A stretch of 38,260 nucleotides of DNA, from NCBI GenBank assembly GCA_013152375.1, contig JAADGM010000122.1:1-38260 (forward strand). Reading direction: 5' to 3'. The position numbers and the translations under genes were made by a program. Source of the DNA: FCB group bacterium (GTDB lineage Bacteria; Fidelibacterota; Marinisomatia; SCGC-AAA003-L08; JACNLC01). Within the stretch, counting starts at the first letter, position 1; each line of letters opens with the position of its first letter. A model generated the notes under the pieces. It did not search any database. It was not told the DNA's origin and worked only from the letters and a program-made list of their open reading frames with translations. Shown one piece after another: positions 983 to 17,000 of the stretch.

Positions 983-1798
983 ATGACAAAAAACAAGATC
1001 AGAAGACCAGCGGTGGCAGACATGTTCTACCCGGGGGACCCGGACAATTTAACCTGGGAGATCCAAAAGTATCTGTTAGCAGCCTTCACAGCGGCCGACT
1101 TTAAACCAAAGGCCCTGGTTGCACCTCATGCCGGGTATGTCTATTCCGGAATCGTTGCCGCCGCAGCTTATAAAACGCTGGAGCGCTATACTGCAGAGTT
1201 TAATAAAGTGATCCTCATCGGTCCGAGCCATCGGGTAGGATTTTCCGGTCTGGCCACTTCATCCTACGATTTTTACAATACCGCCCTGGGAGATATTCCC
1301 GTAGATAAACAACTGCAGCAGGAGCTGGAACGCGAATTTCCTTTCGTCTTATCCTTCGATGCCGCTCATACTGATGAGCATTGTCTCGAAGTGCAGTTAC
1401 CCTTTCTGCAGGAAGTACTGGGTGACTTTTCACTGCTGCCCCTTGTTGCCGGAGATACCGACCCCGATTCAGTGGCCCGAGTTATTGAATACTGTTGGAA
1501 GTACCCGAATGCGGTGATTGTCATCAGTTCTGACCTTAGTCACTACAAATCTTATGACGCGGCCGTGAAAACGGATACCGAGACAGCAGGCACCATCGAA
1601 AGTCTTGCACCTGAACGACTTGCGGAATTCTCAGCCTGCGGAAGAATCCCCCTTGCTGGTTTGCTGTTGGCAGCCCGAAAGAATCACCTGAGCGTAAAGC
1701 GGCTTGATCTGCGCAACTCCGGCGATACGGCAGGAGACAGGAGCCGTGTAGTGGGCTACGGTGCCTGGATATTTTATGATCCGGATTGTGTAAATTGA
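983..1798 (+). CDS. amrB: MEMO1-like protein (AmmeMemoRadiSam system protein B)
   Basis: A 271-residue protein of the MEMO1 family, related to LigB-type extradiol dioxygenases; its bacterial role is not established. The start is ATG 983 because GAGGAGAG precedes it and the family N-terminus (RRPAVADMFYPGDP) begins directly after it. Metal-site residues are all visible: His49 (APHAGYVYSG), His83 (GPSHRV), His187 (SSDLSHY) and Cys219 (SACG), which correspond in order and spacing to H49, H81, H192 and C244 of human MEMO1; DEHCLEVQLPF is another family block. It is first in a cluster with AMMECR1-like and radical SAM genes, the order that defines the AmmeMemoRadiSam set. Family call is secure; function is unknown. 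Confidence 0.93.
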   Translation: MTKNKIRRPAVADMFYPGDPDNLTWEIQKYLLAAFTAADFKPKALVAPHAGYVYSGIVAAAAYKTLERYTAEFNKVILIGPSHRVGFSGLATSSYDFYNTALGDIPVDKQLQQELEREFPFVLSFDAAHTDEHCLEVQLPFLQEVLGDFSLLPLVAGDTDPDSVARVIEYCWKYPNAVIVISSDLSHYKSYDAAVKTDTETAGTIESLAPERLAEFSACGRIPLAGLLLAARKNHLSVKRLDLRNSGDTAGDRSRVVGYGAWIFYDPDCVN

Positions 1799-1835
1799 CC
1801 TGGCCGGGTGCACAAATCCCCTCCCCGTTATCCTG

Positions 1836-2405
1836 ATGAAGCTGTCACCTGAAGAACAGCAGGCATTGCTGCAGTATGCACGGCGATCAATAAAGTGGGG
1901 GCTGGAGCATACGGGAACCCTGACGGTTTCAGACGGGGATCTCACCGATACCTTTCGTCAACCGGCTTCAACCTTTGTAACCCTGCATCTCGGGGAAGAT
2001 CTCAGAGGATGTATTGGCCGACTAAAATCGAACCGCCCCCTGCTGACTGATGTTATTGAAAACGCCCATTCAGCGGCTTTTGCAGATTACCGCTTTCCGC
2101 CTGTCACAGCACCGGAACTTGGGAAAATAATTATCTCCATATCAGTACTCAGCCGACCGCATGCCCTGTATTTTAAATCCGAGGAAGATCTGCTGGGACA
2201 GCTGGTCCCGGGGACAGACGGGTTGATCCTTTCTGTGCCCGGCCACACCGGAACTTTTCTGCCGAGTGTCTGGGAGAGTCTGCCAACTCCCCGGGAATTC
2301 CTGGAGCAGCTCAAGCGCAAGGCGGGACTGCCGGCGGCATACTGGTCGGATGATATCAGTATTGAGCGCTATCACACTCTTGAATTTAGTGAGCGGGATG
2401 TCTGA
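1836..2405 (+). CDS. amrA: AMMECR1-like protein (AmmeMemoRadiSam system protein A)
   Basis: A 189-residue AMMECR1-domain protein. The hallmark LRGCIG hexapeptide is at residues 54-59, followed by the conserved NAHSAAFADYRFPPVT segment and a GTFLPSVWESL block. No signal peptide or membrane segment is seen, so it should be cytoplasmic. The gene begins 37 bases after the MEMO1-like gene; no clear Shine-Dalgarno precedes ATG 1836, which suggests coupled translation. Its last 8 bases overlap the next gene. In other genomes these proteins co-occur with MEMO1-like and radical SAM partners, and an RNA- or protein-modification role has been suggested but not shown. Family certain, function unknown. 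Confidence 0.93.
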   Translation: MKLSPEEQQALLQYARRSIKWGLEHTGTLTVSDGDLTDTFRQPASTFVTLHLGEDLRGCIGRLKSNRPLLTDVIENAHSAAFADYRFPPVTAPELGKIIISISVLSRPHALYFKSEEDLLGQLVPGTDGLILSVPGHTGTFLPSVWESLPTPREFLEQLKRKAGLPAAYWSDDISIERYHTLEFSERDV

Positions 2406-3483
2406 AACAGCCCGATATTGGCAGACCCTTGAGGACGGAACCCTGCAGTGTGATCTCTGTCCGCGCTTCTGCAGGTTACATGAGGGGCAAAGCGGACTGT
2501 GTTTCGTCCGACAGCGGCACGGAGATAAACTGGTGCTTACAACCTACGGCAGATCCTCCGGTTTCTGTATCGACCCCATAGAAAAAAAACCGCTGAACCA
2601 CTTTTTACCGGGAACGCCCATTCTCTCCTTTGGGACTGCCGGCTGCAATCTGACCTGTAAATTCTGCCAGAACTGGGATATGAGCAAGTCCCGTGAAATG
2701 GATCTGCTGCAGGCGGAGGCAGCACCGGAGCAGATTGCCGCCGCCGCCGCTGCTCTGGAGTGCAGGAGTGTGGCCTTTACCTACAACGATCCGGTCATAT
2801 TTTTGGAATATGCAGTGGACATTGCCCGGGTTTGCCGTGAGCGGGACATCAAATCGGTGGCGGTCACGGCCGGATATATCAACCGTCCGGCTCGCAGCGA
2901 GTTTTTCGCTCACATGGATGCAGCCAATGTGGACCTGAAGGGTTTTACCGAAGAGTTTTATCAGAAGCATTGCTCTGCCTCCCTTGCCCCGGTACTGGAA
3001 ACACTTAGGTACATCACTGCGGAGACGGATGTCTGGCTTGAGCTCACGACCCTGTTGATCCCCGGTCAAAACGATTCAGCAGATGATTTAAAGCGACAGT
3101 GCGGATGGATTGCAGAAAATCTTGGCTGCTATGTTCCGCTGCATTTTACGGCCTTCCACCCGGCTTACCGGATGATGAAGCTTCCTGCTACACCCTTTTC
3201 AACCTTGCAGAATGCCAGAAAAATTGCACTTCAGGAGGGCCTGCACCACGTCTACACGGGAAATGTTTACGACCCCGTGGGGTCGGGTACCTATTGTCAT
3301 TCCTGCGGCAGATTACTCATCGGAAGGAGGGGATATCAGTTGTCAGAGTGGCACCTCACGTCGGCTGGGAATTGCGAATTCTGCGGTGGAAAATGCAGCG
3401 GCATCTTCGAAACAGAGCCGGGCACCTGGGGCAGCCGTGTCCGCCGTGTTGTGATTTCGGACTTTGCTATGCCGGGTGAATGA
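2398..3483 (+). CDS. amrS: AmmeMemoRadiSam system radical SAM enzyme
   Basis: A 361-residue radical SAM protein related to pyruvate formate-lyase activating enzymes. Start ATG 2398 overlaps the AMMECR1-like stop codon; the longer upstream frame is rejected because it lies wholly inside that gene. An N-terminal Cys cluster (CDLCPRFC then GLCFVR) precedes the radical SAM CxxxCxxC motif (AGCNLTCKFCQNW, about residue 80). A C-terminal zinc-ribbon-like region has CHSCG and later CEFCGGKC. These extra Cys pairs suggest auxiliary metal binding. SAM cleavage by the 4Fe-4S cluster is expected; the substrate is unknown. Translational overlap with the AMMECR1-like gene supports stoichiometric expression. 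Confidence 0.92.
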   Translation: MSETARYWQTLEDGTLQCDLCPRFCRLHEGQSGLCFVRQRHGDKLVLTTYGRSSGFCIDPIEKKPLNHFLPGTPILSFGTAGCNLTCKFCQNWDMSKSREMDLLQAEAAPEQIAAAAAALECRSVAFTYNDPVIFLEYAVDIARVCRERDIKSVAVTAGYINRPARSEFFAHMDAANVDLKGFTEEFYQKHCSASLAPVLETLRYITAETDVWLELTTLLIPGQNDSADDLKRQCGWIAENLGCYVPLHFTAFHPAYRMMKLPATPFSTLQNARKIALQEGLHHVYTGNVYDPVGSGTYCHSCGRLLIGRRGYQLSEWHLTSAGNCEFCGGKCSGIFETEPGTWGSRVRRVVISDFAMPGE

Positions 3484-3737: not shown

Positions 3738-4322
3738 ATGGCGAAAAGTACAACTTCACACACAGAGAAAAAAGCAAAAACCAGAGCCAAAAAAATGACC
3801 CAGGCTGATAAAAAAACAGCTGCAATGGAGGCGAAGATAAAGGCACTGGAAGACCAGGTCGCCGAAGCGCTCAAAGAACGGGATGCAGCCAGAGAGAAAA
3901 ATGTCCGGCTGTTGGCAGAGTTTGATAATTTCAAACGCCGTACCGCTAAAGACCGGCTTCAGCTCATCAAGTATTCCTGTGAAGATATTGCCACAGCCCT
4001 TTTGCCCGTTTTGGATGATTTGGACAGAACTATTTCTTCGACCCCCAGAGCGAAAGCTGGTAAGAACCCCCTGCTGGAGGGAGTGGTCATGGTCAGGGAT
4101 AAATTCGATAAACTTCTCCGGGAGAATGGCATCCGTCCATTCACATCAGTAGGTGAAAAATTCAATACCGATTTGCACGAGGCACTCATGAGCCGGGAGA
4201 CCGAGGATATGGAAGAAGACAGAGTCCTCGAAGAATTCGAAAAAGGCTATAAGTACCACGACAGGGTCATCCGCCATGCCAAGGTCATCGTGAGCAAAGC
4301 CAAGAAAGCCGTTGCCAAGTGA
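3738..4322 (+). CDS. grpE: GrpE, nucleotide exchange factor of DnaK
   Basis: A 194-residue GrpE. A Lys/Ala-rich N-terminus leads into a long coiled coil (residues about 25-65, ending AEFDNFKRRTAKDR, the family signature), then the compact beta domain with VLDDLDRTI and the C-terminal HEALM...GYKYHDRVIRHAKVIV block. It releases ADP from DnaK in the cytosolic folding cycle. It overlaps dnaJ by four bases (GTGA), so the two are translationally coupled. dnaK and hrcA are not in this window, which is a little unusual since grpE-dnaK-dnaJ often cluster. Confidence 0.97.
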   Translation: MAKSTTSHTEKKAKTRAKKMTQADKKTAAMEAKIKALEDQVAEALKERDAAREKNVRLLAEFDNFKRRTAKDRLQLIKYSCEDIATALLPVLDDLDRTISSTPRAKAGKNPLLEGVVMVRDKFDKLLRENGIRPFTSVGEKFNTDLHEALMSRETEDMEEDRVLEEFEKGYKYHDRVIRHAKVIVSKAKKAVAK

Positions 4323-5434
4323 GCGAGTACTACGACATACTGGGCGTCAGTAAGACGGCCTCTGCGGACGAAATTAAGAAGGCCTACCGTAAGGTTGCCA
4401 TGAAGTATCACCCGGACCGTAATCCGGGGGATGCCAGGGCCGAAGCAAAATTCAAAGAAGCCGCCGAGGCTTATGCGGTCTTAAGTGATGCCGATAAAAG
4501 GGCCCGTTACGACCAGTTTGGAAAAGCCGGGGTCAACGGCGGCGGATTTCAGCAGGGTGGTGTTCATTTCACAAATATGGAGGATATCTTCTCCTCATTC
4601 GGGGATATCTTCGGAGATTTCGGATTTGGGGATCTTTTTGGCGGCAGGAGCGGGGGAAGACGGCGCAGCGGACAACGCCGGGGAACCGATCAAAAGATCA
4701 CCATCCGTCTGACCCTGGAAGAAATTCAAAAAGGTGTTACCAAAACCATCAAACTGAAGAGACTGGAACCCTGTGACGCGTGTCACGGATCCGGCGCAAA
4801 GGCAGGGAGTCAGCCAACCATTTGTCCAACTTGTCACGGCACCGGTGAAGTCCGGCAAGTACAGAGATCCCTGCTGGGTCAGATTGTCAACATTCAGCCC
4901 TGCTATCAGTGCAGAGGTCTCGGTAAAGTTATTTCAGATCCATGCAGGACCTGTGGCGGTGAGGGGGTTGTGAGAAAATCCGGTTCGGTGGATATTGAAA
5001 TACCCCCGGGAGTCTCCACCGGGAACTACATGACCAAACAGGGGCAGGGGAACCATGGTCCTAAAGGAGCTCCGCCCGGGGATCTCATCATTTATTTCGA
5101 GGAAAAAGAACATCCATTGTTCATCCGTGACGGTAATGATGTAATTCTTCAGGTGGATATTCAATATCCCCAGGCCGTGCTGGGAACTACCCTCGAAGTC
5201 CAAACCCTGTCGGGGAAGGTCAAACTGAAGATTCCGCCCGGGATAAGATCGGGGCAGGTGCTGAGACTTAGGGGTAAGGGGCTGCCCGAACTGAACCGGC
5301 ATCGTGAAGGTGATCAATTGGTAAAGGTTCAGGTTGTTACTCCCACAAAAGTTTCTGCAACGATGAAAAAACTGCTGCGGCAGCTGGAGGATGAACTGGG
5401 TACAACACCGGAATTTAAAAAATTCAGACCATGA
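4319..5434 (+). CDS. dnaJ: DnaJ, Hsp40 co-chaperone
   Basis: A 371-residue type I DnaJ that stimulates DnaK ATPase and delivers clients. The J domain has the HPD motif (YHPDRNPGD), followed by a Gly/Phe-rich linker (about residues 75-120), four CxxCxGxG zinc repeats ([32 protein letters not shown]) and the C-terminal substrate-binding domains. The start is GTG 4319, overlapping the grpE stop; the usual YYDILGV begins at once. It overlaps the next gene by four bases (ATGA). All catalytic and zinc residues are intact. Confidence 0.98.
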
Positions 5435-5823
5435 GAGTGTTCACAGATCAGGAAAGAAAAATTATCTTCATACTTTCATCTTTTCTGGTCTTAGGAATTA
5501 TCATTAATTTTACAAAAGAAAAATTCTTAAACGATTCAACGGAGACTCTGACACAAATCGCTGTTTCGGAAGAGATCAGCGGCATTTATGACAGTGGTAA
5601 AATTCAAAAAGATAAGGATAAACCGGCAGACACGAAAATTAATGTGAATACTGCTGATGCAATAAGTTTAACCGAGTTACCGGGAATTGGTCCGGCACTT
5701 GCCAAGAGAATTATAGATTACCGGGAAAATTCCGGTGACTTCAAGAGCCCCGAAGAGTTAACGAAAGTTCGGGGGATCGGTAAAGCTGTTTTGCGTAAAA
5801 TACGACCATTTATCGAACTATAG
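5431..5823 (+). CDS. comEA: ComEA-like helix-hairpin-helix protein
   Basis: A 130-residue protein with one N-terminal membrane segment ([17 protein letters not shown]), a short linker and a C-terminal ComEA-type double helix-hairpin-helix domain ([26 protein letters not shown], with a second [10 protein letters not shown] turn). ComEA binds incoming DNA outside the inner membrane during natural transformation. The ATGA overlap with dnaJ places it in the chaperone operon. It precedes pilus-like genes, and dprA ends the same run, so a DNA-uptake role is plausible. comEC is not in this window. Family secure; role inferred. Confidence 0.85.
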
Positions 5824-5839
5824 CTGGGGGGATATCGAA

Positions 5840-6613
5840 TTGACCAAAGAAAATAACATAGAACGTAAGATCAGCATCCTTGATTGGGGGATTCTGTTAA
5901 GTGTATTAGTGCTGCTGGTAGTGATCTATATTCCCAGCTCAATCTGGCGGCAGGAGATCAAAGATCGACGGGAAAGTCGCCATCGGATGACGATAATTGC
6001 TGAAGCGGAAGCTTTCTACAAAGAACTTACCGGCTCTTACACTACGGACGGCAAAGAACTTTTTTCTCTTGTAGAAGCGGCCATGGATTCCCTCATAGCC
6101 GACACGCTTTTTGTGGGGGAGCAGACCATCCACCTGCAGGGAAAAGACTATATCGTGAATATGACCCGGGGCATCGAACATCGGATTGACACGACCTTCA
6201 GTCATGCCCAGGTTCTGAAGAAAACCTTTGTGGATACTATTTTTTATGTTACACAGATCAATATCGATACCGGTGGTTTGGACACCATTGCCGTGAATGA
6301 AAATGATATTGCCGAAAAGAAAGAAAATCCCTTTTTCAAGGAAGTGATCGGTACTGAAATTACCCGCAGAGTTGAGGATTTTACAGATTATTTAAGAGAT
6401 AAATATCACCTGACACCCGATCTGCTGTATTGTCCGCTTTCGGGGAAACCCTATCAACTGGAGATCGATAAATCTGACCCCGAAAGGGATGTTTTTATCG
6501 TACGAAGTCCCGTTCCGCCGGACTACAAGGAAACAAGATATTGGATCTTTAAATACGAATCAGGAAATCATGGAGAAATCGTGGATGGCGTAAAAAGCTG
6601 GGCTGAAAAATAA
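5840..6613 (+). CDS. Membrane-anchored protein with pseudopilin-like architecture
   Basis: 257 residues; start TTG 5840 after a CTGGGGGG ribosome-binding stretch. The N-terminus is charged, then one hydrophobic helix (WGILLSVLVLLVVIYIPSSIW, about 16-36), then a helical run and an extended periplasmic domain. The sequence just after the helix (AEAEAFYKELTGSYTTDGKEL) resembles the alpha1-C to loop region of pseudopilins, and CPLSGKPYQLE near residue 200 recalls the C-terminal part of type II secretion-type pseudopilins. No canonical G/FTxxE prepilin cleavage site is visible, so processing is doubtful. It sits between comEA-like and pilM-like genes, which supports an envelope or pilus-assembly role. 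Function is inferred. Confidence 0.6.
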   Translation: MTKENNIERKISILDWGILLSVLVLLVVIYIPSSIWRQEIKDRRESRHRMTIIAEAEAFYKELTGSYTTDGKELFSLVEAAMDSLIADTLFVGEQTIHLQGKDYIVNMTRGIEHRIDTTFSHAQVLKKTFVDTIFYVTQINIDTGGLDTIAVNENDIAEKKENPFFKEVIGTEITRRVEDFTDYLRDKYHLTPDLLYCPLSGKPYQLEIDKSDPERDVFIVRSPVPPDYKETRYWIFKYESGNHGEIVDGVKSWAEK

Positions 6614-6623
6614 GGAGCAGCCC

Positions 6624-7520
6624 TTGCTAGCCATCTCACAGGCGTATAACGCTTTTAATTTTCTGCACTGGACACCTTCAGACAGCGGCCCACTGGTAAC
6701 GGGGTTCGGGAACCTCACCTTTTCCGATTGTGATTTCAGTACGGCCGCTTCGGTCAATCAGATCATTGCTGCCATTAAAGCCAAGATCACTCTGGACCTT
6801 CCGATCTTTGCATTTTCACTGGATGCTTCCAAAGTTTTTTTTTCAACGACCCCTGCACCAAAAGATGTTGATCCTGTAGATATCCTGTCCTGGCAGATCA
6901 ATCAATCTCAGGACGAGAGATTTCAGGAAGTTATGAATTCTTTCCACTATCCCCTGGCATCCGATCTGGAGATGTTCCTGAACATTCACATTCCCAAAGT
7001 GATCAAGAAATCCATCATTGAATCAACCCGCCAATATAAGGGGGAAGTCCGGTTTGTAAGCATCGGAATATTTTCCGCCGAAAATTGTGCCCGATACTGT
7101 TTCAAAGCCGGTGACCTGAAATCTTATATGATCTGGCGGATGGGTAAATACAATATCGATCAGTTCCTGATCATTGAGGATAATGCTTTACAGGCTTATT
7201 TTTCGGTCAAGCGCTCACCGGATACGGTAAAACTTCTGGAGACCTGGGGTAACAGAGACCTGGCCGGGGAAGTCGCCGGGGAAATTGAAAAATATCTGAA
7301 AGGAGACCTCACGGGGTTTCGCAGCACGGAACGCGTTTTTGTCTATCAGGCCGATCATAAATACCTCGATATCCGCAAGGTCATCGAGGCGGCTTTAGAT
7401 AATGTTACGCTCCTGAATCCTCTAAAAGTCCTGCGTTCCGAATCCCCCGGGAAAATCAATTTTTATAAAACCTCCTATCTGGCGGAGACGGGACTGATTT
7501 TCAGAGGGCTGGATGTTTGA
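6624..7520 (+). CDS. Divergent PilM-like (actin-fold) protein
   Basis: 298 residues, no signal peptide or membrane helix. TTG 6624 is chosen because AAGGAG lies 6 bases upstream. The ending AETGLIFRGLDV looks like the close of PilM/GspL-type actin-like domains (AxGLALRGL). The order of a soluble actin-like protein followed at once by a short-cytoplasmic-tail bitopic protein (next gene) is the PilM-PilN arrangement. The usual PilM phosphate motifs are not obvious, so nucleotide binding is uncertain. It overlaps the next gene by 8 bases. The call depends on weak motifs plus gene order. Confidence 0.55.
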   Translation: MLAISQAYNAFNFLHWTPSDSGPLVTGFGNLTFSDCDFSTAASVNQIIAAIKAKITLDLPIFAFSLDASKVFFSTTPAPKDVDPVDILSWQINQSQDERFQEVMNSFHYPLASDLEMFLNIHIPKVIKKSIIESTRQYKGEVRFVSIGIFSAENCARYCFKAGDLKSYMIWRMGKYNIDQFLIIEDNALQAYFSVKRSPDTVKLLETWGNRDLAGEVAGEIEKYLKGDLTGFRSTERVFVYQADHKYLDIRKVIEAALDNVTLLNPLKVLRSESPGKINFYKTSYLAETGLIFRGLDV

Positions 7521-8253
7521 CCTGAATTTACTGGGGAAACCGGGGATTCAGCCGCAGGTGGTGGAGACGGCTTATTCTTTCATTGAACAGAAGCCAAAAC
7601 CTGCCGTGGTTTCCCATCACGAAGAATATGCCGAGGAACCTCCGGAGGGAGCCATGGAAAGCCGGCGTCTCGCTCCCATCCTGATACCGCTATTGATTTT
7701 ACTGGTGATGGTCGGTGTATATTTTTTCAATACGGGTCTGAATAAAACAGCCCTGCCTGAAGAGCGGGAAAGTCTTTCTGTTCAGGATGAGATCTCACAG
7801 GTCATCTCGATGCTGGGGAATCTGTCAGACAAGGTCTATCTTCAGCGTTTTCTGCTGACCCCTGAGATCATACTCGTGAATTTAAGGTCCGATGATCAGA
7901 TCGAATTAAATATGCTGAGCGCTGAGCTGGAAGACCTGCTTAAGGTTCAGTGCCGTATTTCAGGGAGTAAGGAATTTGGTGTGCTACTTTCAATTTCAAT
8001 TCCAATTGAATACGAAAGCCGCGAACTCAACGACACTATCCCTGTGAAAAAGATCATGGAGGAACAGGGCTTATCCGAAATCCGGGAGACGGGTTTGACC
8101 ATCTCGGCCACAGTGCGGAATGAGGATATTTTTCCCCTGCTGCAAAGATTACTGGATGACGGCTATATCTATTACAAGAAATGCTGGATTGAGTGCAGAG
8201 TGGATGAGAACTGTTTATTTCAGCTGTTATATGATGCATCAGCGACGAAATGA
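7513..8253 (+). CDS. PilN-like bitopic inner-membrane protein
   Basis: 246 residues. The N-terminus MFDLNLLGKPGIQP resembles the PilN cytoplasmic tip (INLLPxR) that binds PilM. About 45 linker residues follow, then one membrane helix (LAPILIPLLILLVMVGVYFF, about 54-73) and a periplasmic alpha/beta domain. It overlaps the PilM-like gene by 8 bases and rsmD by four (ATGA). In type IV pilus or type II secretion machines such a protein links the cytoplasmic motor to the periplasmic frame. No PilO, PilQ, PilB or PilT gene is next to it, so this is either a partial outlying cluster or a reduced system. Confidence 0.55.
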   Translation: MFDLNLLGKPGIQPQVVETAYSFIEQKPKPAVVSHHEEYAEEPPEGAMESRRLAPILIPLLILLVMVGVYFFNTGLNKTALPEERESLSVQDEISQVISMLGNLSDKVYLQRFLLTPEIILVNLRSDDQIELNMLSAELEDLLKVQCRISGSKEFGVLLSISIPIEYESRELNDTIPVKKIMEEQGLSEIRETGLTISATVRNEDIFPLLQRLLDDGYIYYKKCWIECRVDENCLFQLLYDASATK

Positions 8254-8771
8254 TCACGATCATCGCCGGAAAATATCGGGGGCGTAAACTTCTCGGAGTT
8301 TCCGATCCAGGGGTCCGTCCCACCCTGGCACGGGTTAAAAAATCTGTAATGCAAATACTGGAACCTTTCGGGGGAATTGACGTGCTCGATCTCTATGCGG
8401 GAATCGGAACACTGGGGATAGAGGCTCTGAGCCGCGGCGCCAGAAGTGTCACGGCTGTAGAAAGAAATTATTCAGTTTTTCGCATCCTGCAGAATAATTT
8501 TGAGAAAATCTGTAACACGGATGATTACCGTCTCGTAAAAATGGACGTTCACCATCACCTGGCTCTGGAGGATCGGGAGTATGATCTTATCCTGGCAGAT
8601 CCGCCCTATCATACGGAAAACTTTGAAGCGCTGAAAACTGCGGTTTTGCCGTATTTGAAAAAGGGGGGGATTTTCTGCATGGAGATGAAAAAAACTCCGC
8701 TGGAAGCCAGGGATATAAGAATAAAACTCTACGGAAAAACGCAGGTCGTGTTCTGGAGGAATTCCACATGA
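8250..8771 (+). CDS. rsmD: 16S rRNA (guanine-966 N2)-methyltransferase RsmD
   Basis: 173 residues with the RsmD order: IIAGKYRGRKL start, RPT..RVKKSVMQIL, SAM-binding LDLYAGIGTLGIEALSRGA, acidic VERN after strand 2, and the catalytic DPPY at about residue 112-115. It methylates G966 of 16S rRNA on the 30S subunit using SAM. The PilN-like gene upstream and coaD downstream each overlap it by four bases; rsmD-coaD is a very common bacterial pair. Confidence 0.93.
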   Translation: MITIIAGKYRGRKLLGVSDPGVRPTLARVKKSVMQILEPFGGIDVLDLYAGIGTLGIEALSRGARSVTAVERNYSVFRILQNNFEKICNTDDYRLVKMDVHHHLALEDREYDLILADPPYHTENFEALKTAVLPYLKKGGIFCMEMKKTPLEARDIRIKLYGKTQVVFWRNST

Positions 8772-9244
8772 AAATTGCCGTATATCCGGGGTCTTTTGAC
8801 CCTATAACTTTCGGACATATCGACATCATCGAAAGGGCGGTGACACTGTTTGATAAGGTGATCGTGACGGTCAGCCAGAATTTCGAAAAAACCCCCTGGT
8901 TCACAGCTGCTGAGCGGTGCGAAATGATCAAAGACTCCGTGTCGGGCTTGGCCAACTGTGAAGTGGATCATTTCAAGGGGTTGCTCGTCGATTATGTCAG
9001 TCGAATGCATGGCACGGCCATTATCCGTGGACTCAGGGCATTGTCTGATTTTGAGTTTGAATTTAAAATGGCGCTGATGAACAGAAGCCTGGCGGAGGAT
9101 ATCACGACGGTTTTTATGATGCCCCATGCCCGTTACACGCATGTGAGTTCTTCCCTTGTACGAGAGGTTGCGGGCCTAGGCGGGGATGTCTCAATGCTGG
9201 TTCCTGACCATGTGGCCAGGATGCTGAAAAAGAAACTTGCATAA
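8768..9244 (+). CDS. coaD: Phosphopantetheine adenylyltransferase CoaD
   Basis: 158 residues, the usual family length. The nucleotidyltransferase motif YPGSFDPITFGHIDII (TxGH-type) is at the N-terminus, RGLRALSDFEFEFKMA in the middle, and the ISSTxxR-equivalent THVSSSLVREVA near the C-terminus. It catalyses the fourth step of coenzyme A synthesis, joining ATP and 4'-phosphopantetheine to dephospho-CoA. ATGA overlap with rsmD; 8-base overlap with the next gene. Confidence 0.97.
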   Translation: MKIAVYPGSFDPITFGHIDIIERAVTLFDKVIVTVSQNFEKTPWFTAAERCEMIKDSVSGLANCEVDHFKGLLVDYVSRMHGTAIIRGLRALSDFEFEFKMALMNRSLAEDITTVFMMPHARYTHVSSSLVREVAGLGGDVSMLVPDHVARMLKKKLA

Positions 9245-10178
9245 AGCCGCTCTTCAGGATCAACTACTAAGCAGGATCAGCGAGCCCGGGGCAAAGATCG
9301 TTTTACCGGAATGGGAAGACGATCGTATCCGGAAAGCTGCAGGCCAACTCATTGCAGAGGGCGTTGAAATTGTAACACCGGCTGATTTTGAGCATCAAAG
9401 GGAGGCCTATACGACGTATATCCGCCGCCGCGCATTTACGCGAAACTGGCCCGAAAAGCTCCTGGTAAAATATCTGGAAAATCCGGTTAACTTTGCGGCT
9501 GCCATGGTAGCTCTCGGAGATGCGGACGGTATGGTAGCCGGCGTATTGACTCCAAAAGAGGATATCCTCCGGACAGCCATTCGGGTGCTGGGGGTGAGCC
9601 GGGAATACCGCTTTGTTTTCAGCTCAATCTACCTGGAAGCCCCGGATGGAAAGCGTCGTTTATCTTTTGCCGATTGCAGCGTGGTCCCCGAACCCAAACC
9701 CCTGGAACTGGCAGCAATTGCCGGGCATACGGCCCTGTTCCACCACTGGCTCACGGGAGATGAACCGGAAGTGGCTTTTATCTCTTTCTCAACAGCGGGG
9801 GAACTGGAGCATTACCGGATTGAACGGGTGCGGGAAGCCATTCAGAAATTCAGGCGGAAATTTCCCGGTCTGCGGTTTGGGGGCGAAATGCAGGCAGATG
9901 CAGCGCTGGACCCTGATACGGCCCGGCGGAAAGGGACTGACCCGGATTGGAGCGGCAGGGCAAATGTGCTGATTTTTCCCAATCTGGATGCAGGCGATAC
10001 GGCCTGGAAAATTACGGAACGATTGGCCGGCTATGCGGTTACAGGCCCCATACTGCACGGCCTGAACCGGCGGTTGAACCTCGTATCGCGGGGAAGCTCA
10101 GTTGAAAGTATCATCAAAACAGTATTGTTGACAATTGCGGAGAGAGATTATCATGCCAACTTACAATTACAAATGTGA
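9237..10178 (+). CDS. pta: Phosphate acetyl/butyryltransferase family protein (Pta-like)
   Basis: 313 residues matching the PTA/PTB family: KIVLPEWEDDRIRKAA at the N-terminus, GDADGMVAGV, a long middle domain and GGEMQADAALDP in the C-terminal half. TTG 9237 inside the coaD end is the only start that keeps the family N-terminus. It would convert acyl-CoA plus phosphate to acyl phosphate. The catalytic loop is altered: family members read (N)DLSRGCSxxDI, here it is NLVSRGSSVESI. Ser and Arg are kept, but the Asp before Ile (D316 in the Methanosarcina enzyme) is Ser. Activity or substrate may therefore differ. No acetate kinase gene is nearby. Placement after coaD is consistent with CoA metabolism. 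Confidence 0.85.
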   Translation: MHKAALQDQLLSRISEPGAKIVLPEWEDDRIRKAAGQLIAEGVEIVTPADFEHQREAYTTYIRRRAFTRNWPEKLLVKYLENPVNFAAAMVALGDADGMVAGVLTPKEDILRTAIRVLGVSREYRFVFSSIYLEAPDGKRRLSFADCSVVPEPKPLELAAIAGHTALFHHWLTGDEPEVAFISFSTAGELEHYRIERVREAIQKFRRKFPGLRFGGEMQADAALDPDTARRKGTDPDWSGRANVLIFPNLDAGDTAWKITERLAGYAVTGPILHGLNRRLNLVSRGSSVESIIKTVLLTIAERDYHANLQLQM

Positions 10179-10437
10179 AGATTGCGGACATCTTTCGTCG
10201 GTAATACAAAGTATCAAAGACGAACCCCTGACACGCTGCTCACAATGCGGTGGGAAAATATACCGCATAATCAGCGGTGGTTCAGGGCTTATCTTCAAGG
10301 GCTCCGGATTCTATGTGAATGACTATGCCCACAGCTCGGCGTTCAAATCCGGAGAAAAGATTAAAAAAACGGAAACAGCAAAGAGCCCGGAAAAACCTGC
10401 GGCAAAATCAGAACCCGTCAAAAGTGACGGGGATTAA
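10153..10437 (+). CDS. FmdB-type zinc-ribbon protein
   Basis: 94 residues. The N-terminal domain MPTYNYKCEDCGH...CSQCGGK has the two CxxC pairs of the FmdB/CxxC_CxxC_SSSS putative regulatory family, followed by GGSGLIFKGSGFYVNDYA, also typical. The C-terminal about 30 residues are Lys/Glu/Pro/Ala-rich and disordered. ATG 10153 follows GGAGAGAG and overlaps the end of the Pta-like gene by 26 bases. Family members are widespread, small and of unproven function. Confidence 0.88.
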   Translation: MPTYNYKCEDCGHLSSVIQSIKDEPLTRCSQCGGKIYRIISGGSGLIFKGSGFYVNDYAHSSAFKSGEKIKKTETAKSPEKPAAKSEPVKSDGD

Positions 10438-10473: not shown

Positions 10474-11673
10474 ATGACAAATAACAGTATTGACAAAGCT
10501 AAAGATCAATTTGCCAAAGTTGTTGAGCAGCAGCTGGCAAGAATTGAACGCATGAAAGCCGGCGAGGAAAAAACGGATTATTCCACACTCAAACCGATCA
10601 TTGTAGGCATCATCGGCGGAGATGGAATAGGACCTTACATCGCAGACGAAGCCAAGCGGGTCCTTGAGATTATCCTGGCTGACGAGTTAAAATCCGGCAA
10701 GGTGGAATTCAGAGATATCACCGGACTGACCATTGAAAAACGAGCCGAACTCAACCAGCCGATCCCGACGGATGTACTGGAAGAGATCAGGCAATGCCAC
10801 GTAACCCTTAAAGGACCCACAACGACCCCGAGGAAAGGTGACCCCTGGCCGAATATTGAAAGTGCCAATGTTGCCCTGCGGAAGGAACTGGATCTCTTCG
10901 CCAATGTCCGGCCGGTAAAAGTCCCCAGGGACGGCATTGACTGGATCTTCTTCCGTGAAAATACTGAAGGCGCCTATGCCCTTGGCAGCAGCGGCCTGGA
11001 GATAACCGATGATCTTGCGATGGACTTCACGGTAACCACAACCCAGGGCTCTGAAAGGCTCATCCGCCTGGCTTTTGAATACGCCGATCGAAATAATATC
11101 GATAAGTTGACGCTGGTAACCAAGGCCAACGTTATCAAGACCACGGACGGGAAGTTTCTCAAAATCGGACAGGAAATCGCCAAGGAATACCCGCATATTT
11201 CCGTGGATGACTGGTACATTGACATCATGACGGCCAAACTTGTGGACAAGAAACGACGGTCTCAATTCAGGGTCATGGTGCTTCCCAACCTTTACGGTGA
11301 CATTCTCACCGATGAAGCGGCAGAATTCCAGGGTGGTGTCGGGACCGCCGGTTCGGCGAATATCGGGAATAAATATTCCATGTTCGAGGCCATCCACGGG
11401 TCTGCTCCCAGAATGGTGAGTGAAGGCCGGGCACAGTATGCCGATCCCTCCAGTATGGTTCGTGCCGGTGTCATGCTGTTAAACCACATCGGTTATACGG
11501 AGCATGCCCGCAAGCTCGAGATGGCGCTGGATATCACCAGTCAGTTCGAAAAGAAGCTGGTCATGACCGGGCGCGACACCGGTGCCAACGGCAGAGAATT
11601 CTGTGACTATATCATCGAGACCATGAATGAACCGGGGCTGGAACAGAAATGGCAATCCTATCAGGCATCCTGA
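10474..11673 (+). CDS. icd: Isocitrate dehydrogenase family protein
   Basis: 399 residues of the isocitrate/isopropylmalate dehydrogenase family. About 38 N-terminal residues extend beyond the usual start (IVGIIGGDGIGP). Substrate residues fit isocitrate: Ser130-x-Asn132-x-x-x-Arg136 matches S113/N115/R119 of E. coli Icd, Arg146 and Tyr168 are kept, and the metal-binding Asp residues lie in YGDILTDEAAE. Where E. coli Icd has Lys-Tyr for NADP (THGTAPKY), this protein has Arg-Met followed by an insertion (IHGSAPRMVSEGRAQ), so cofactor choice cannot be read off. AAGGAGT precedes the ATG. Expected role: oxidative decarboxylation of isocitrate in the TCA cycle. Confidence 0.88.
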   Translation: MTNNSIDKAKDQFAKVVEQQLARIERMKAGEEKTDYSTLKPIIVGIIGGDGIGPYIADEAKRVLEIILADELKSGKVEFRDITGLTIEKRAELNQPIPTDVLEEIRQCHVTLKGPTTTPRKGDPWPNIESANVALRKELDLFANVRPVKVPRDGIDWIFFRENTEGAYALGSSGLEITDDLAMDFTVTTTQGSERLIRLAFEYADRNNIDKLTLVTKANVIKTTDGKFLKIGQEIAKEYPHISVDDWYIDIMTAKLVDKKRRSQFRVMVLPNLYGDILTDEAAEFQGGVGTAGSANIGNKYSMFEAIHGSAPRMVSEGRAQYADPSSMVRAGVMLLNHIGYTEHARKLEMALDITSQFEKKLVMTGRDTGANGREFCDYIIETMNEPGLEQKWQSYQAS

Positions 11674-11718: not shown

Positions 11719-12723
11719 ATGAAATTCGTCGACCAGGCCACCATCCACGTAAAAGCCGGCAGCGGCGGTCACGGCTGCATTGCTTTTTTGCGGGAGAAAA
11801 ATCGTCCCAAGGGCGGACCCTGCGGCGGGGATGGCGGTCATGGCGGCGATGTTATCCTGAAGGTCGATCCTAACCTGGCCACCCTGCATGATGTTTCCTA
11901 CCAGCGTCATTATAAGGCCGGCCGGGGGCAGCACGGCCTGGGAACTAACAAACACGGAAAAAACGGCGAGGACATTATAATTCCCGTTCCCTCGGGAACC
12001 CTCGCCAGGGATCTGGCATCCGGAAAAATCCTCTGTGACCTGGTTCACGATGACGATACTTTTATCATTGCCAAAGGCGGTAACGGGGGGTTCGGCAACG
12101 CCAGATTCAAAACCCACACTCGGACGGCTCCCAGAATTGCCAACGACGGCCAGCCCGGTGAAGAAAAGGATATTGAGTTGGAGCTCAAAGTCCTGGCGGA
12201 TGTGGGTCTGGTGGGTTTCCCCAATGCCGGTAAATCGACATTTCTGTCTAAAGTCTCCGCCGCCAGACCCAGGATCGCAGACTATCCCTTCACCACCCTC
12301 ATTCCCAATCTGGGCATTGTCAAATATGGTGCTTTTAAATCCTATGTCATCGCTGATATTCCAGGTTTGATCAAAGGAGCCAGCCTGGGAAAGGGTCTGG
12401 GCAGTCAATTTCTCAAACATGTTGAACGAACCCGCGTGCTGGTTTATCTCATCGATGGTAACGCCTCCGATATTGCCGGACAATACAAGGTCCTGAGAGG
12501 TGAACTGGAAAATCATAATCCCGAACTGCTCCGGCGTCCGTCGATCCTGCTGCTGACCAAAGCAGACAGTTGGGGAGATGATGGACCGGAGGGCCAGCCG
12601 CTGCCGGAGGATATTGAGATCTACCGGATATCAGCGGTGAGCGGTGAGAACACCCTAACGGTCGTGGACCGGATCGCCCGGTTACTGCAGGAAAGAGATG
12701 ATCCCCCCCCATCAGATCATTAG
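11719..12723 (+). CDS. obg: GTPase Obg (CgtA), ribosome assembly
   Basis: 334 residues. The glycine-rich Obg fold occupies residues 1-158 (GGHGC, GGDGGHGGDV, GGNGGFGNARF), followed by the G domain: G1 GFPNAGKST, switch I YPFTTLIPNLG, G3 DIPGLI, G4 LTKAD and G5 SAVSG. There is no C-terminal OCT domain, as in many short Obg proteins. It acts in late 50S assembly and stress signalling. It begins 45 bases after icd and overlaps dprA by 26 bases. Confidence 0.97.
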   Translation: MKFVDQATIHVKAGSGGHGCIAFLREKNRPKGGPCGGDGGHGGDVILKVDPNLATLHDVSYQRHYKAGRGQHGLGTNKHGKNGEDIIIPVPSGTLARDLASGKILCDLVHDDDTFIIAKGGNGGFGNARFKTHTRTAPRIANDGQPGEEKDIELELKVLADVGLVGFPNAGKSTFLSKVSAARPRIADYPFTTLIPNLGIVKYGAFKSYVIADIPGLIKGASLGKGLGSQFLKHVERTRVLVYLIDGNASDIAGQYKVLRGELENHNPELLRRPSILLLTKADSWGDDGPEGQPLPEDIEIYRISAVSGENTLTVVDRIARLLQERDDPPPSDH

Positions 12724-13765
12724 CCTTACGGGGGTCGCCGGTATGGGCCCCCGGCGTATCCGCAATCTCATCCGGCATTATCCCGAGGTGGAGGATATCA
12801 CCCGTCTCTCCAAAACAGATCTCTGCCGCGCTGACGGGATTTCTGCAGAAATAGCCCTGAATATCCGCGCCATGGACGACGGCTATGGCCGCCTTGCTCT
12901 GGACAACATCGCCACGATCGGGGGACGGTATTGCAGCTATTGGGACGAGGAGTACCCGGACCTGCTGAAGACCGTTTACGATGCTCCGGTAGGGATTTTT
13001 ACGCTGGGTGATATTCCGGCAGGACCGGCGATTGCCATTGTCGGTACCCGCAGGATCACCGCCTATGGCCGGAAGATGGCTGAAAAACTCACGGCCGGGT
13101 TAGTGAAAGCCGGCCTTACCATCGTCAGCGGAATGGCCACCGGTGTGGATACCGTTTGCCACCGGACGGCGATCCGGGAAGGCGGCAAAACGCTCGCTGT
13201 CCTGGGGAATGGTCCCGATGTGTGTTATCCTGCGGCAAACCGGGAACTGCGGAAAAGCATCATCCGCCACGGTGCACTCATTTCAGAATTTACACCGGGA
13301 ACCAGACCGGATGCTCCGAATTTTCCCCGGCGCAACCGCATCATCAGCGGTCTGGCGCTGGGAACCCTGGTAGTGGAAGCAGGCCGGAAAAGCGGAGCCC
13401 TCATTACAGCCTATAACGCTCTGGACCAAAACCGGGAAGTCTTCGCCCTGCCGGGCAGAGTGGATTCAAAACAGTCCGCAGGCTGCCACCATTTAATTCA
13501 GCGGGGAGCAAAGCTGGTCGCCACGGTGGAGGATATCCTGGAAGAACTGCATCTTGATACCGGACTCAAGCAGGTCGAGTTGATGCCTGAACTTTCGACC
13601 GGTGAAAAAGAGATTTACGACTTGCTCTCCAGTGATCCCATCCCCATTGATGATCTCTGCCTTAAGCTGCACAAAGATACTCCGGAAGTACTGGCGACAT
13701 TGCTCCTGCTGGAGCTGAAGAATGCAGTCGTGCAGTTACCCGGTAAAATGTTCAGTCGAGCCTGA
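12698..13765 (+). CDS. dprA: DNA-processing protein DprA
   Basis: 355 residues. An N-terminal helix-hairpin-helix-like SAM region (GVAGMGPRRIRNLI) is followed by the Rossmann DprA core (IVGTRRITAYGRKMAEKL, SGMATGVDTVCHRTA, LGNGPDVCYPAANREL, PRRNRIISGLA, GALITA) and a C-terminal winged helix from about residue 290. DprA loads RecA on incoming single-stranded DNA during transformation. It closes the grpE-to-dprA run, and a ComEA-like gene lies about 7 kb upstream in it. The 26-base overlap with obg suggests co-translation. Confidence 0.97.
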   Translation: MIPPHQIISLTGVAGMGPRRIRNLIRHYPEVEDITRLSKTDLCRADGISAEIALNIRAMDDGYGRLALDNIATIGGRYCSYWDEEYPDLLKTVYDAPVGIFTLGDIPAGPAIAIVGTRRITAYGRKMAEKLTAGLVKAGLTIVSGMATGVDTVCHRTAIREGGKTLAVLGNGPDVCYPAANRELRKSIIRHGALISEFTPGTRPDAPNFPRRNRIISGLALGTLVVEAGRKSGALITAYNALDQNREVFALPGRVDSKQSAGCHHLIQRGAKLVATVEDILEELHLDTGLKQVELMPELSTGEKEIYDLLSSDPIPIDDLCLKLHKDTPEVLATLLLLELKNAVVQLPGKMFSRA

Positions 13766-13981
13766 TCATCCCGATCTGTTACTGCCGGATTTAATCCGTT
13801 TGTGTCGGGCAATTGCCGGACAACACCGGCTGAGACGGTTCGGTTAATTCCCCAGGGGACTGCCCCGGGTTCATACTGATTTATTACCAAGCAAACAACC
13901 CAATCCACTTAGAAGCCGTGTGCCTGGCAGGTTTTCCGCGAAGGATACACCACGGCCCCAATTTGGAGGTAATCATTTTTG

Positions 13982-14010
13982 TTGTAATTTACAGGGTTCT
14001 ATTTTATACA
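13982..14010 (+). promoter_or_regulatory. Candidate promoter of the surface-protein gene
   Basis: TTGTAA (13982-13987), 17 bp, TATACA (14005-14010), in an AT-rich patch of a 277-base gap, 33 bases before the start. A second AT-rich box (TATACT, 14021-14026) is close to the ribosome binding site. A strong GGAGGT precedes ATG 14043, and another GGAGGT near 13965 has no reading frame worth calling. Confidence 0.35.
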
Positions 14011-14042
14011 AATTATACGCTATACTAATTTTGGAGGTCAAA

Positions 14043-17000
14043 ATGAAAAAGACAGCTCCACTGCTAATCCTTCTCATAACAATCGCAACTTTTCTATCCG
14101 CTCAATCGGCAGCATTATATATCGATACCGTAAACCAACAGGCGCAAACCATTGATGTCTGGCTGGATACTCCCGGTGAGGTTGCCGGTTTTCAGTTTGA
14201 ATTGAACGGCGTGGAACTTTGCACAGAGCCTGCATGCATTTCCGGCGGCAGTTCGGGCGCTCCCTCCTGGATGTTATCTGTGGGAGAGAGTGGAATTGTC
14301 CTCGGCTTCACCTTCGGAGTGGCGTATATTCCCCAGGGGGATGCGCTTTTGGTTACCCTGACTTATAATGCCATAACAGGCCCGGAACTAACACTCTCAA
14401 ATGTGGTTATCTCGGGTCCTCCGGGACTGCCTCCCTATCCGGTTGAGATCGGTCCGCCCTATGTATTTATTGACGGACCCGTTTTTGGCTGTACTGATCC
14501 GTCAGCAATGAATTTTGATCCGGAGGCTACAACGGACAATGGCAGCTGCCAGTTTGCCGATATCTTTGGCTGTATGGACCCCACCGCCTGTAATTATAAT
14601 CCAGAGGCAGGAAATGATGATGGCTCCTGCGAGTTTGAGAGCTGCGTGGATTGTGCGGGAGTGTACGCCGGGGATGCGTTCATTGATGATTGTGGTGTCT
14701 GCTCCGGAGGCACCACCGGACATTGGGCAAACATTGATATGGACGCCTGCGGTGTTTGTTTTGGCGATGGTTCAGGCTGCATTTCAGAACTGTATTTTGG
14801 CAACCTTGATCAGAGTGCGCATACGCTTGAACTTTGGCTGAACACGAGTACCGAAATCAGTTCCTTTTCAATTCGAATAACCGGTATCAATCTCCTGACA
14901 TTTTCCGGGGGTATTCTTGGCGAGTTGCCCGATTGGACATTCGACCTGAGCATGGCTCAGCCGGACCCCAGTGTTTACTATGATTTTTCTGGAGAGAGTC
15001 TCGGTGCTGATTACATTCCGGTTGGAGAACACCTGCTGACTATATTTTCATATGATCACCTGTTGGCCACTTCGGTATGTTTTTCCTTTCAGGGTTCGGC
15101 CTTCTACGGTCCTGAGGGTTACCCTGCTTCTGTCACTCTCGGAAGCTGCCTCGACTTGTTGGATCAACCCATCCTGGGTTGTACTGATCCCCTTGCCTGT
15201 AATTATAACCCTTACGCCGTTGAGGACAATGGATTGTGTGAATACGAGTCCTGTTACGATTGTGCCGGGCAAATGGGAGGCTTCGGGGTTCTCGACGACT
15301 GCGGAATCTGTTCGGGGGGGACCAGCGACCATGTTGCCAACAGCGATATGGATTGTGCCGGTGAGTGTTTCGGTGAAGCGCTGCCGGATGACTGCGGAGT
15401 CTGTTCGGGGGGAATCAGCGGGCATGAGCCGGACAGTGATATGGATTGCGCCGGCGTTTGTTTCGGGACAGCTGAGGCAGACGTGAATGGGCTCTGCTGT
15501 CAAAACGAGGAAATCGACTGTGCCGGCATCTGCTTTGGGCAGGCCTTTGTGGATGATTGCCAGATCTGTTCGGGGGGGACCAGTGGGCATGAGGCCAATT
15601 CCGATATGGATGCCTGTGGCGTCTGTTTTGGGAACGCTCTCGAACCCGGACCGGATTGCAATGGAGAATATTGTGGCGGAGCCTATATCAATGAATGTGG
15701 CTATTGTGTTGGCGGCAGTTCCCGTTTTGACCGAGATTACGGCATGGACTGTGCCGGAGTCTGTGACGGAGAGGCCTTCATCGACGACTGCGGAGTCTGT
15801 TCCGGCGGCACCAGTGGACACGAGGCCAATTCGGACATGGACTGCTTGGGCGATTGTTTCGGTTGGGCATTTTTTGATGAGTGGGGTAACTGTGTAAACG
15901 ATGATGGTGATAGTTTTAATGCAGACCTGGATTGTAATGGCGTTTACTTTGGCAATTCGGTTATCGATGACTGTGGTAACTGTGTCCTGCCTGATGACTT
16001 CAATGCAGCCATGGATGACTGCGGTGTTTGCAATGGGAATAATGCCGACATGGATTGTAACGGCGATTGTTTCGGGACAGCCATCCTAAATGACTGCGGC
16101 TGCGTTGGCGGGAATACAGGTCTGGAGGCGGATTTCTGCATACCCCCTTCCTCATTCACGTTCAATCAATCGACCCTGCAGGCCTATTATTTTATTGCCA
16201 ATGCCACGCTTGACGGTGTTGAACTGGTGCCGGGCGAAGACTGGATCATCGCTTACAATGGTGATGTGATTGCCGGAGCGGTTGCCTGGTCCGGCAGCTA
16301 CACGACTCTCCCGACGATGGGGGATGATGGTGACGAAGCGACCGCAGGATATTTCCAGTCCGGCGATATCCCCGATATAAGGATCTACGACGGATCCAGC
16401 GGCGAACTTTATGAAACCACTGCGACAAGTGTCGACCCGCAACTGGCCTGGGAGATCAATGGTCTTTCTACCATTGATCTGTTGGAAGCCGTCCTCCGGG
16501 AGACTCAGAGCCGGGAGTTGCATGCCGGGTCGAATCTGGTTGGTTTCCAGGTAATTCCGGATGATCTGTACCTGTCGCTCGTATTATCCGGACTTACGGG
16601 TAACTGTTTTGGTGTTATCGGAGAGGGTGTCGCTGCCCAGCCAAATCCCATACAGCCTGGAGAATGGGTTGGCAGTCTGGTAAATTTTGATATTCACAAG
16701 GGTTACTGGATAAAAATGTGGGATGCCGATACGCTTGAAATACAAGGCCCGGCCATCGGGTCGGATATCACTTATGACTTGCACTCAGGTGCAAATCTCA
16801 TCAGTTATCCATTTTTCAGCAGTCTGCCCCTGGAGATGGCGATCCCCTATGAGTTCTGGCAGTCCATCATCGCCATTATCAGCGAAGGCGAGGCCGCCAT
16901 ACCCAACCCCTTCACGGAGGACGAGTGGATTGGCAGTCTTACCGAATTTATTGGTGGCCACGGTTACTGGATGATATTAGATCAGGCCCTGAACTATCAT

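Follow-up and report, generated by a model that had tools for sequence, protein, structure and literature searches.

The window (the whole 38,260-nucleotide stretch of contig JAADGM010000122.1 from an FCB group bacterium, GenBank assembly GCA_013152375.1, to which all coordinates refer) contains three consecutive open reading frames (ORFs), ORF2, ORF3 and ORF4, which follow a comEA-like gene (ORF1) between dnaJ and rsmD. We consider it likely that these three genes encode a complex of the inner membrane that derives from type IV filament machinery and works independently of a motor. The unit is nearly universal in the phylum Neomarinimicrobiota and persists in genomes without the platform, an intact motor, the prepilin peptidase, the secretin, ComEA and ComEC. 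As the pilus parts are gone in such genomes and ORF2–ORF4 are kept, the three genes probably do some other job in the cell envelope than pilus building. A more specific picture, to which we would give about even chances, is that of a phylum-wide core envelope machine in which a tethered, unprocessable pseudopilin is combined with a PilM–PilN (GspL-like) pair and which needs no motor, platform, secretin or peptidase. A type IV filament ancestor would then have become a static device across the membrane, retained after the loss of both pili and DNA uptake even in genomes as small as about 0.8–1.0 Mb.

The distribution of the unit was assessed in 245 genomes of the phylum, with a profile match at E 0.001 taken as the presence of ORF2; most of these genomes are draft assemblies, in which an absence may be a gap. 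ORF2 is present in 228 of the 245 genomes (90 of the 94 good ones), PilC (PF00482) in 143 and ComEC in 127. ORF2 was found in 83/86 genomes with both PilC and ComEC, 54/57 with PilC only, 38/41 with ComEC only and 53/61 with neither; 91 of the 102 PilC-negative genomes therefore carry it. The motor, secretin and peptidase were searched for in 39 of these 102 genomes, where T2SSE was over the cut-off in five, the secretin in eight (9/40 when the genome of the window is added) and the peptidase (PF01478) in three. As a positive control, 11 PilC-positive genomes were tested and every one had the peptidase, so that the absence of PilD from PilC-negative genomes is informative. Three groups, f5 (eight genomes), g5 (five) and f13 (11), have ORF2 in 24 of 24 tested genomes, and none of the 24 has PilC, the secretin (PF00263) or the prepilin peptidase (PF01478). 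T2SSE passed the cut-off in one of them, as a 141-residue fragment (G187), and no intact PilB was present. ORF3 stands beside ORF2 in all 13 f5 and g5 genomes. ComEC is found in six of the eight f5 and four of the five g5 genomes and in 0/11 f13 genomes; the latter measure about 0.8–1.0 Mb and, without ComEC, yet have ORF2. In the four f13 loci that were read (4/4) a single ORF of 463–483 residues is found there, akin (98.5%) to the ORFs that are fused in other families.

The ORF2–ORF4 unit is not the only filament-like equipment of this bacterium. The initial annotation had noted that PilQ and motor ATPases were missing, which holds for the contig of the window but not for the rest of the genome, where secretins and motor ATPases are present. 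A search of the genome located comEC, pilQ and pilB on other contigs, with comEC on contig C94. Contig C15 carries a PilM–PilN fusion, PilO, a PilP-like ORF, a secretin, two PilT-like ATPases, PilD and PilB; contig C137 carries PilM, PilN, PilO, a secretin, pseudopilins and a PilT-like ATPase; and contig C19 carries PilB, PilC and PilD (some of these names, such as PilO and PilP, were assigned by reading the sequence). Four secretin matches were recorded in all (C15, C137, C117 and C6), and the type IV filament-like genes form two or more separate sets. Because full sets lie on other contigs, ORF2–ORF4 are an extra set and not the sole one of the cell, which also has type IV filament machinery of the conventional kind. 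These sets, and the presence of PilC in 143 of the 245 genomes, could suggest that ORF2–ORF4 are an accessory to the cell's conventional type IV pilus or secretion apparatus, and the loci that lack ORF3 and ORF4 include one in G113 of family f17, a family with PilC in all three genomes. The retention of ORF2 in PilC-negative genomes speaks against such a role, which we regard as very improbable; as the sole role of the unit it is largely refuted by the 24 genomes without core parts.

The initial annotation had also offered the reading of a minimal envelope complex that feeds DNA to ComEA. The ComEA-like identity of ORF1 is borne out by its HHH_3 match and by NCBIfam TIGR00426 (60.1 bits, cut-off 53.1), the full-length TIGR01259 model staying below its cut-off; ORF1 can thus be assigned from its sequence as a ComEA-like protein with the ComEA HHH repeat. 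ComEA at the locus and ComEC in the genome were scored together for 46 of 51 loci, five being left out as they have no dnaJ next to ORF2; by construction, ORF2 is present in all 46. Both were found in 30 cases, ComEA alone in three, ComEC alone in none and neither in 13 (p = 5.5e-9, a descriptive value only, as related genomes are not independent). ComEA therefore goes with ComEC, and ORF2, which stays in the 13 loci without either, depends on neither. For the same reason, feeding DNA to ComEA is not supported as the core role. In its stronger form this explanation holds that ORF2–ORF4 take the place of the transformation pilus and pass DNA on to ComEA and ComEC, at any rate where type IV pili have been lost. 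It draws on the position of ComEA directly upstream in 33/46 scored loci, on the presence of ORF2 in nearly all PilC-negative, ComEC-positive genomes, on groups f5 and g5, where the core parts of a pilus are absent but comEA and, in most genomes, comEC are retained, and on the comEC gene of the window's own genome. However, ORF2 is also kept in most genomes lacking both PilC and ComEC, and there is no motor or secretin to pull DNA in, so that we judge it fairly improbable; in pilus-less members that bear ComEC, ORF2–ORF4 may have a side role in DNA uptake. A better fit is the other suggestion of the initial annotation, that an unrelated machine uses the same scaffold. A separate pattern was seen in several genera (G160–G164, G167, G169, G171, G172 and G174–G178), which have PilC and no ComEC match and in which comEA is gone from the scored loci.

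None of ORF2, ORF3 and ORF4 has a significant match in Pfam, NCBIfam or PDB sequence searches, and their relatives have no common Pfam or NCBIfam family either. For ORF3, the link to known proteins was obtained through intermediates. The ORF3 profile matches PilM proteins encoded in synteny in genomes outside the phylum (1.3e-13, 3.5e-8 and 6e-4), and the syntenic outside PilM relatives match Pfam PilM_2 at 9.3e-33, 1.2e-15 and 5.2e-15. In profile–profile comparison with hhalign, ORF3 scored 99.1% against the PilM set in global mode (12 controls at or below 0.2%) and 98.0% in local mode (four controls at or below 0.2%), 43–59% against the PilM of its own genome (contig C137) and about nothing in global comparison against two other single PilM sequences. 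The controls were unrelated or non-PilM profiles. PilM_2 itself was found in 0/20 ORF3 members of the phylum. These comparisons support the assignment of ORF3 as a diverged PilM, a member of the actin-like family, as had been proposed for this highly diverged gene. Where other PilM proteins have an N-terminal G-x-D/H-F-G, ORF3 has AISQ-like residues, and no GxDxG-type phosphate motif was seen, both as judged by eye from the alignment; nucleotide binding has therefore probably been lost.

ORF2 is the most conserved part of the unit. The N-terminal helix aligns with those of syntenic pseudopilins of 120–126 residues (G380 and G301) and of two pilins of G347, and a C-terminal HG...G..SW pattern is common to ORF2, the G380 protein and the G347 pilins, becoming blurred in G301. 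The G347 pilins have a canonical leader, and the one tested matches Pfam N_methyl at 6.5e-10. Relative to these pilin-type proteins, ORF2 carries an insertion of about 105 residues. Two sequence sets that overlap in part, one of 28 diverse rows from the phylum and one of 37 rows, were used to examine the leader region. Gly at position −1 occurs in 0/28 and 0/37 rows and Ala in 2/28 and 0/37, while the +5 residue is Asp or Glu in 22/28 (Asn in five, Ser in one) and 37/37, and Pro occupies +22 in every row. Eight residues (P32, E39, D83, D117, T118, P199, I247 and W254) are invariant over the 28 diverse rows. Among outside relatives, Gly at −1 is retained in G380, G301 and G289 and lost in G298. 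With hhalign, ORF2 scored 95% against the pilin set and 84% against the canonical pilin of L183, comparisons that include relatives found with the ORF2 profile itself; against single members found by the profile the values were 84–97%, and against the pilin of its own genome 28% (local) and 1.6% (global), with controls at or below 0.2%. A PDB profile search returned PilA, PilA and GspG among four matches (E 0.15–1.4), which is a hint only. The AlphaFold2 model of ORF2 (37 sequences, mean predicted local distance difference test score, pLDDT, of 86.8) consists of one helix, residues 2–64, and a long β domain, with two long predicted strands (121–140 and 166–188) in the inserted region. By sequence and synteny, ORF2 is a relative of the pseudopilins that has lost the prepilin-peptidase site, has kept a mostly acidic +5 residue, Pro22 and the C-terminal motif, and has gained an inserted β domain. 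Enlarged forms also occur: in one family (L127:8663-10894 and L126:5906-8119) ORF2 has about 740 residues, with ORF2-like repeat units between the N-terminal helix and the C-terminal motif, and L049:6599-9175 encodes an 858-residue ORF2 with a long acidic insert and DLGE/NGVWD-type repeats that resemble calcium-binding repeats.

ORF4 is poorly conserved (mean column identity of 19%) apart from its first residues, which follow the consensus M-F-D-x-N-L-L-x-x-P-G-I-Q, with P10 invariant and N5, G11 and Q13 each in at least 90% of 18 rows. In PilN, this is the place of the motif that docks on PilM; our literature search for the motif found no paper. The AlphaFold2 model of ORF4 (12 sequences, mean pLDDT of 73, rising to 81–92 over most of residues 90–239) places the elements H90–102, E108–115, E119–126, H129–143, E147–152 and E156–164 after the membrane helix. 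In a fold comparison with 999 chains, GspL periplasmic domains occupy ranks 2–4: PulL 8a9w (Z 6.9, root-mean-square deviation, r.m.s.d., of 2.1, 73 of 75 residues aligned), PulL 5hl8 (Z 5.6, r.m.s.d. 2.8, 78 aligned) and EpsL 2w7v (Z 5.6, r.m.s.d. 2.8, 77 aligned). The ORF4 profile scores 70–91% against the syntenic outgroup genes. ORF4 is predicted to have a PilN/GspL-type build, with one membrane helix between a short, conserved N-terminus in the cytosol and two ferredoxin-like domains. The link to pilus proteins, for which a PilN ferredoxin-like domain had been named as a test, is supported by this predicted domain together with the diverged PilM and the pseudopilin-related ORF2.

Several points weigh against this interpretation. 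The identity of ORF3 comes from sequence comparison rather than from a structure model. No PDB entry matches the ORF2 model significantly (best Foldseek E 0.1), so that the pilin ancestry of ORF2 rests on sequence and synteny. Its best VIA match has Z 4.3 with an r.m.s.d. of 5.1 over 69 aligned residues; the fold searches related residues 121–189 to phage proteins (short matches) and the long helix to flagellins, both taken as common arrangements, and contained no pilin row, which excludes nothing. For ORF4, the fold Z scores are all below 8 and an unrelated regulatory domain scores higher than the GspL domains (Z 7.0), so fold alone does not prove descent; nor has ORF4 a significant sequence match to classical PilN or PilO (hhalign, with PilN at about 10% at best). 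The fused ORF of the f13 genomes is linked to ORF3 only via the fused ORFs of other families, the direct comparison giving 11.3%. Finally, ORF2, ORF3 and ORF4 do not always travel together, because three loci of one family (L161, L163 and L165) lack ORF3 and ORF4, rsmD following 66–180 bases after ORF2. These loci still keep ComEA and ORF2, and L121 (G113, family f17) has the same gene set as L165. As all three f17 genomes have PilC, we speculate that another PilM–PilN pair may serve there.

Taking these points into account, a motor-independent complex remains our preferred explanation, and its working could be envisaged as follows. On the cytosolic side, ORF3 would dock on the ORF4 N-terminus, and on the periplasmic side the domains of ORF4 would hold ORF2. 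ORF2 would stay anchored in the membrane, as a peptidase could not release it, and an assembly with ORF2 tethered in this way would most likely act not as a filament builder but as a static scaffold or relay that spans the inner membrane. ComEA would be a neighbour kept or lost with ComEC and not the reason for the complex. The genes are under strong purifying selection: the ratios of nonsynonymous to synonymous substitution (dN/dS, by NG86) in comparison with a genome of the same genus are 0.031 for ORF2, 0.069 for ORF3 and 0.123 for ORF4. The view that the unit is a mere remnant of a pilus locus now lost, surviving by chance within a conserved operon, might explain why the cleavage site and the nucleotide motif are gone, but these ratios refute it, and the near-universal retention in streamlined genomes and the eight invariant residues of ORF2 also stand against it; we consider it barely credible.

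The genes around the unit form a single run, grpE-dnaJ-comEA-ORF2-ORF3-ORF4-rsmD-coaD-pta-fmdB-idh-obgE-dprA, with overlaps or gaps of up to about 50 bases (Table 1). The order and coordinates given initially for the pilus-like genes between dnaJ and rsmD, with dprA last, are confirmed.

Table 1. Genes of the run and features of ORF2 and ORF4 in the window.
Feature	Position	Strand	Remarks
grpE	3738..4322	+	Context; Pfam GrpE 1.5e-45
dnaJ	4319..5434	+	Context, upstream neighbour; Pfam DnaJ_C 1.6e-47, DnaJ 6.5e-28
ORF1, ComEA-like	5431..5823	+	N-terminal membrane helix and HHH DNA-binding repeat; Pfam HHH_3 1.7e-22
ORF2	5840..6613	+	TTG start; pseudopilin-derived bitopic membrane protein
ORF2 residues 1–10, leader equivalent	5840..5869	+	Position −1 is Lys10, not Gly/Ala
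ORF2 residues 11–64, pilin-like N-terminal helix	5870..6031	+	Membrane part about 11–33; Asp15 is +5, Pro32 is +22
ORF2 insertion, residues about 89–194	6104..6421	+	Absent from outside relatives of 120–126 residues; limits approximate, from alignment
ORF2 C-terminal motif HGEIVDGVKSW	6569..6601	+	Common to syntenic pseudopilins and two canonical pilins
ORF3	6624..7520	+	TTG start preceded by AAGGAG; diverged PilM-like protein, cytosolic
ORF4	7513..8253	+	Predicted PilN/GspL-like bitopic protein
ORF4 residues 1–13 (MFDLNLLGKPGIQ)	7513..7551	+	Only well conserved stretch; position of the PilN motif
ORF4 membrane helix, residues 54–75	7672..7737	+	From model
ORF4 first ferredoxin-like domain, residues 87–165	7771..8007	+	Predicted; resembles GspL periplasmic domains
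ORF4 second a-b-b-a-b-b domain, residues 176–239	8038..8229	+	From model, pLDDT about 81–89
rsmD	8250..8771	+	Context, downstream neighbour; Pfam Cons_hypoth95 1.4e-36
coaD	8768..9244		
pta	9237..10178		PTA_PTB protein
fmdB	10135..10437		Zn-ribbon protein, presumably FmdB-like
idh	10474..11673		Iso_dh
obgE	11719..12723		Obg
dprA	12698..13765	+	Context, closes the run; Pfam DNA_processg_A 4.2e-76

The neighbourhood is conserved across the phylum. Among 35 sampled loci, dnaJ lies within 1.5 kb upstream of ORF2 in 34, rsmD and coaD lie downstream in 33 and ftsE lies upstream in 29; given the recurrence of dnaJ, rsmD and coaD, the arrangement is not chance. The position of ftsE, and the encoding of FtsEX upstream in most relatives, would suit an envelope or cell-division scaffold in which an FtsA-related, actin-like ORF3 and its PilN-type partner act near FtsEX. 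Retention in the genomes of about 0.8–1.0 Mb is consistent with such a role, as is the match of the genome's own PilM to the FtsA model (5.7e-15), the two families being close. However, the operon mixes housekeeping genes (rsmD, coaD and obgE), so that the neighbourhood says little, and ftsEX is not upstream in the window itself; we hold an envelope or division scaffold of this kind to be unlikely. In the window, genes for Memo, AMMECR1 and a radical SAM protein are clustered 5′ of grpE (983-3483), where most relatives have ftsE-ftsX and often hrcA. After dprA (13920-17672) follows an ORF of 1250 residues with many cysteine-rich DCAGVC/DDCGVCSGG-type repeats that looks like a large secreted protein.

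ORF3 and ORF4 form one ORF of 572–592 residues in several families and of 463–483 residues in the smallest genomes. The bacterium belongs to Candidatus Neomarinimicrobiota. Its nearest named relative is a Neomarinimicrobiota metagenome-assembled genome with 93% ORF2 identity, and of 37 loci from named genomes 35 carry a Neomarinimicrobiota or Marinimicrobia label, the remaining two being 'FCB group bacterium' and 'bacterium TMED46'. Of 147 genomes from outside the phylum, 11 gave a match to the ORF2 profile. Six of these (G289, G298, G301, G317, G324 and G380) share the neighbourhood, with comEA, PilM or rsmD adjoining, and the unit is therefore older than the phylum. The matches in G347, G254, G278 and G260 are pilin-like genes or belong to a pilus locus elsewhere, and no convincing gene was seen at the match in G342.

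Our literature searches found no paper on this locus and none that combines Marinimicrobia, competence and comEC. Almost universal and without a Pfam family, ORF2 can serve as a marker protein of this uncultured marine phylum, and the conversion becomes testable along a gradient that runs from a syntenic pseudopilin retaining Gly at −1 to one that lacks it. PilMNO are regarded as helpers of filament assembly. A review (PMC10191384) suggests that they may only stabilize the motor and platform. If the present interpretation is true, a PilM–PilN pair and a pseudopilin kept without motor and platform would show that the subcomplex has a job of its own.

The key parts of the type IV filament superfamily, as named in a passage of PMC6668835, are an ATPase, a platform and a major pilin, plus a peptidase and a secretin, and the pilin leader ends in Gly or Ala according to an excerpt of PMC10191384. 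Judged by the 24 genomes of f5, g5 and f13, the ORF2–ORF4 system needs no intact motor ATPase, platform, prepilin peptidase or secretin, and its leader equivalent does not end in Gly or, but for two of the 28 rows, in Ala. It resembles the PilM–PilN alignment subcomplex of type IVa pili in the order PilM then PilN, in the alignment of ORF3 with PilM over its length, and in the layout of ORF4, with an LNLL-P motif at the start, then a single membrane helix and a ferredoxin-like domain. It differs from that subcomplex in that ORF3 has no PilM_2 match (20 members) and the nucleotide motif was not seen, that no PilO, PilP or PilQ is adjacent, that ORF4 has a second ferredoxin-like domain, and that ORF2–ORF4 are present where pilus core parts are gone. 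GspL of type II secretion (PulL and EpsL) is close in that its periplasmic domain is among the best fold matches of ORF4 and that the fused PilM–PilN ORFs of relatives have the GspL build, whereas in the window separate genes encode the two halves and GspE, GspF and GspD do not accompany them. ORF2 is like GspG- and PilA-type pseudopilins and pilins in its long N-terminal helix, acidic +5 residue, Pro at +22 and C-terminal HG...G..SW, but it lacks Gly at −1, has the insertion of about 105 residues and is kept in genomes without the prepilin peptidase. With the ComEA/ComEC uptake system, the locus shares the ComEA upstream and the DprA that ends the run in the window; unlike ComEA, which is lost along with ComEC, ORF2 is retained.

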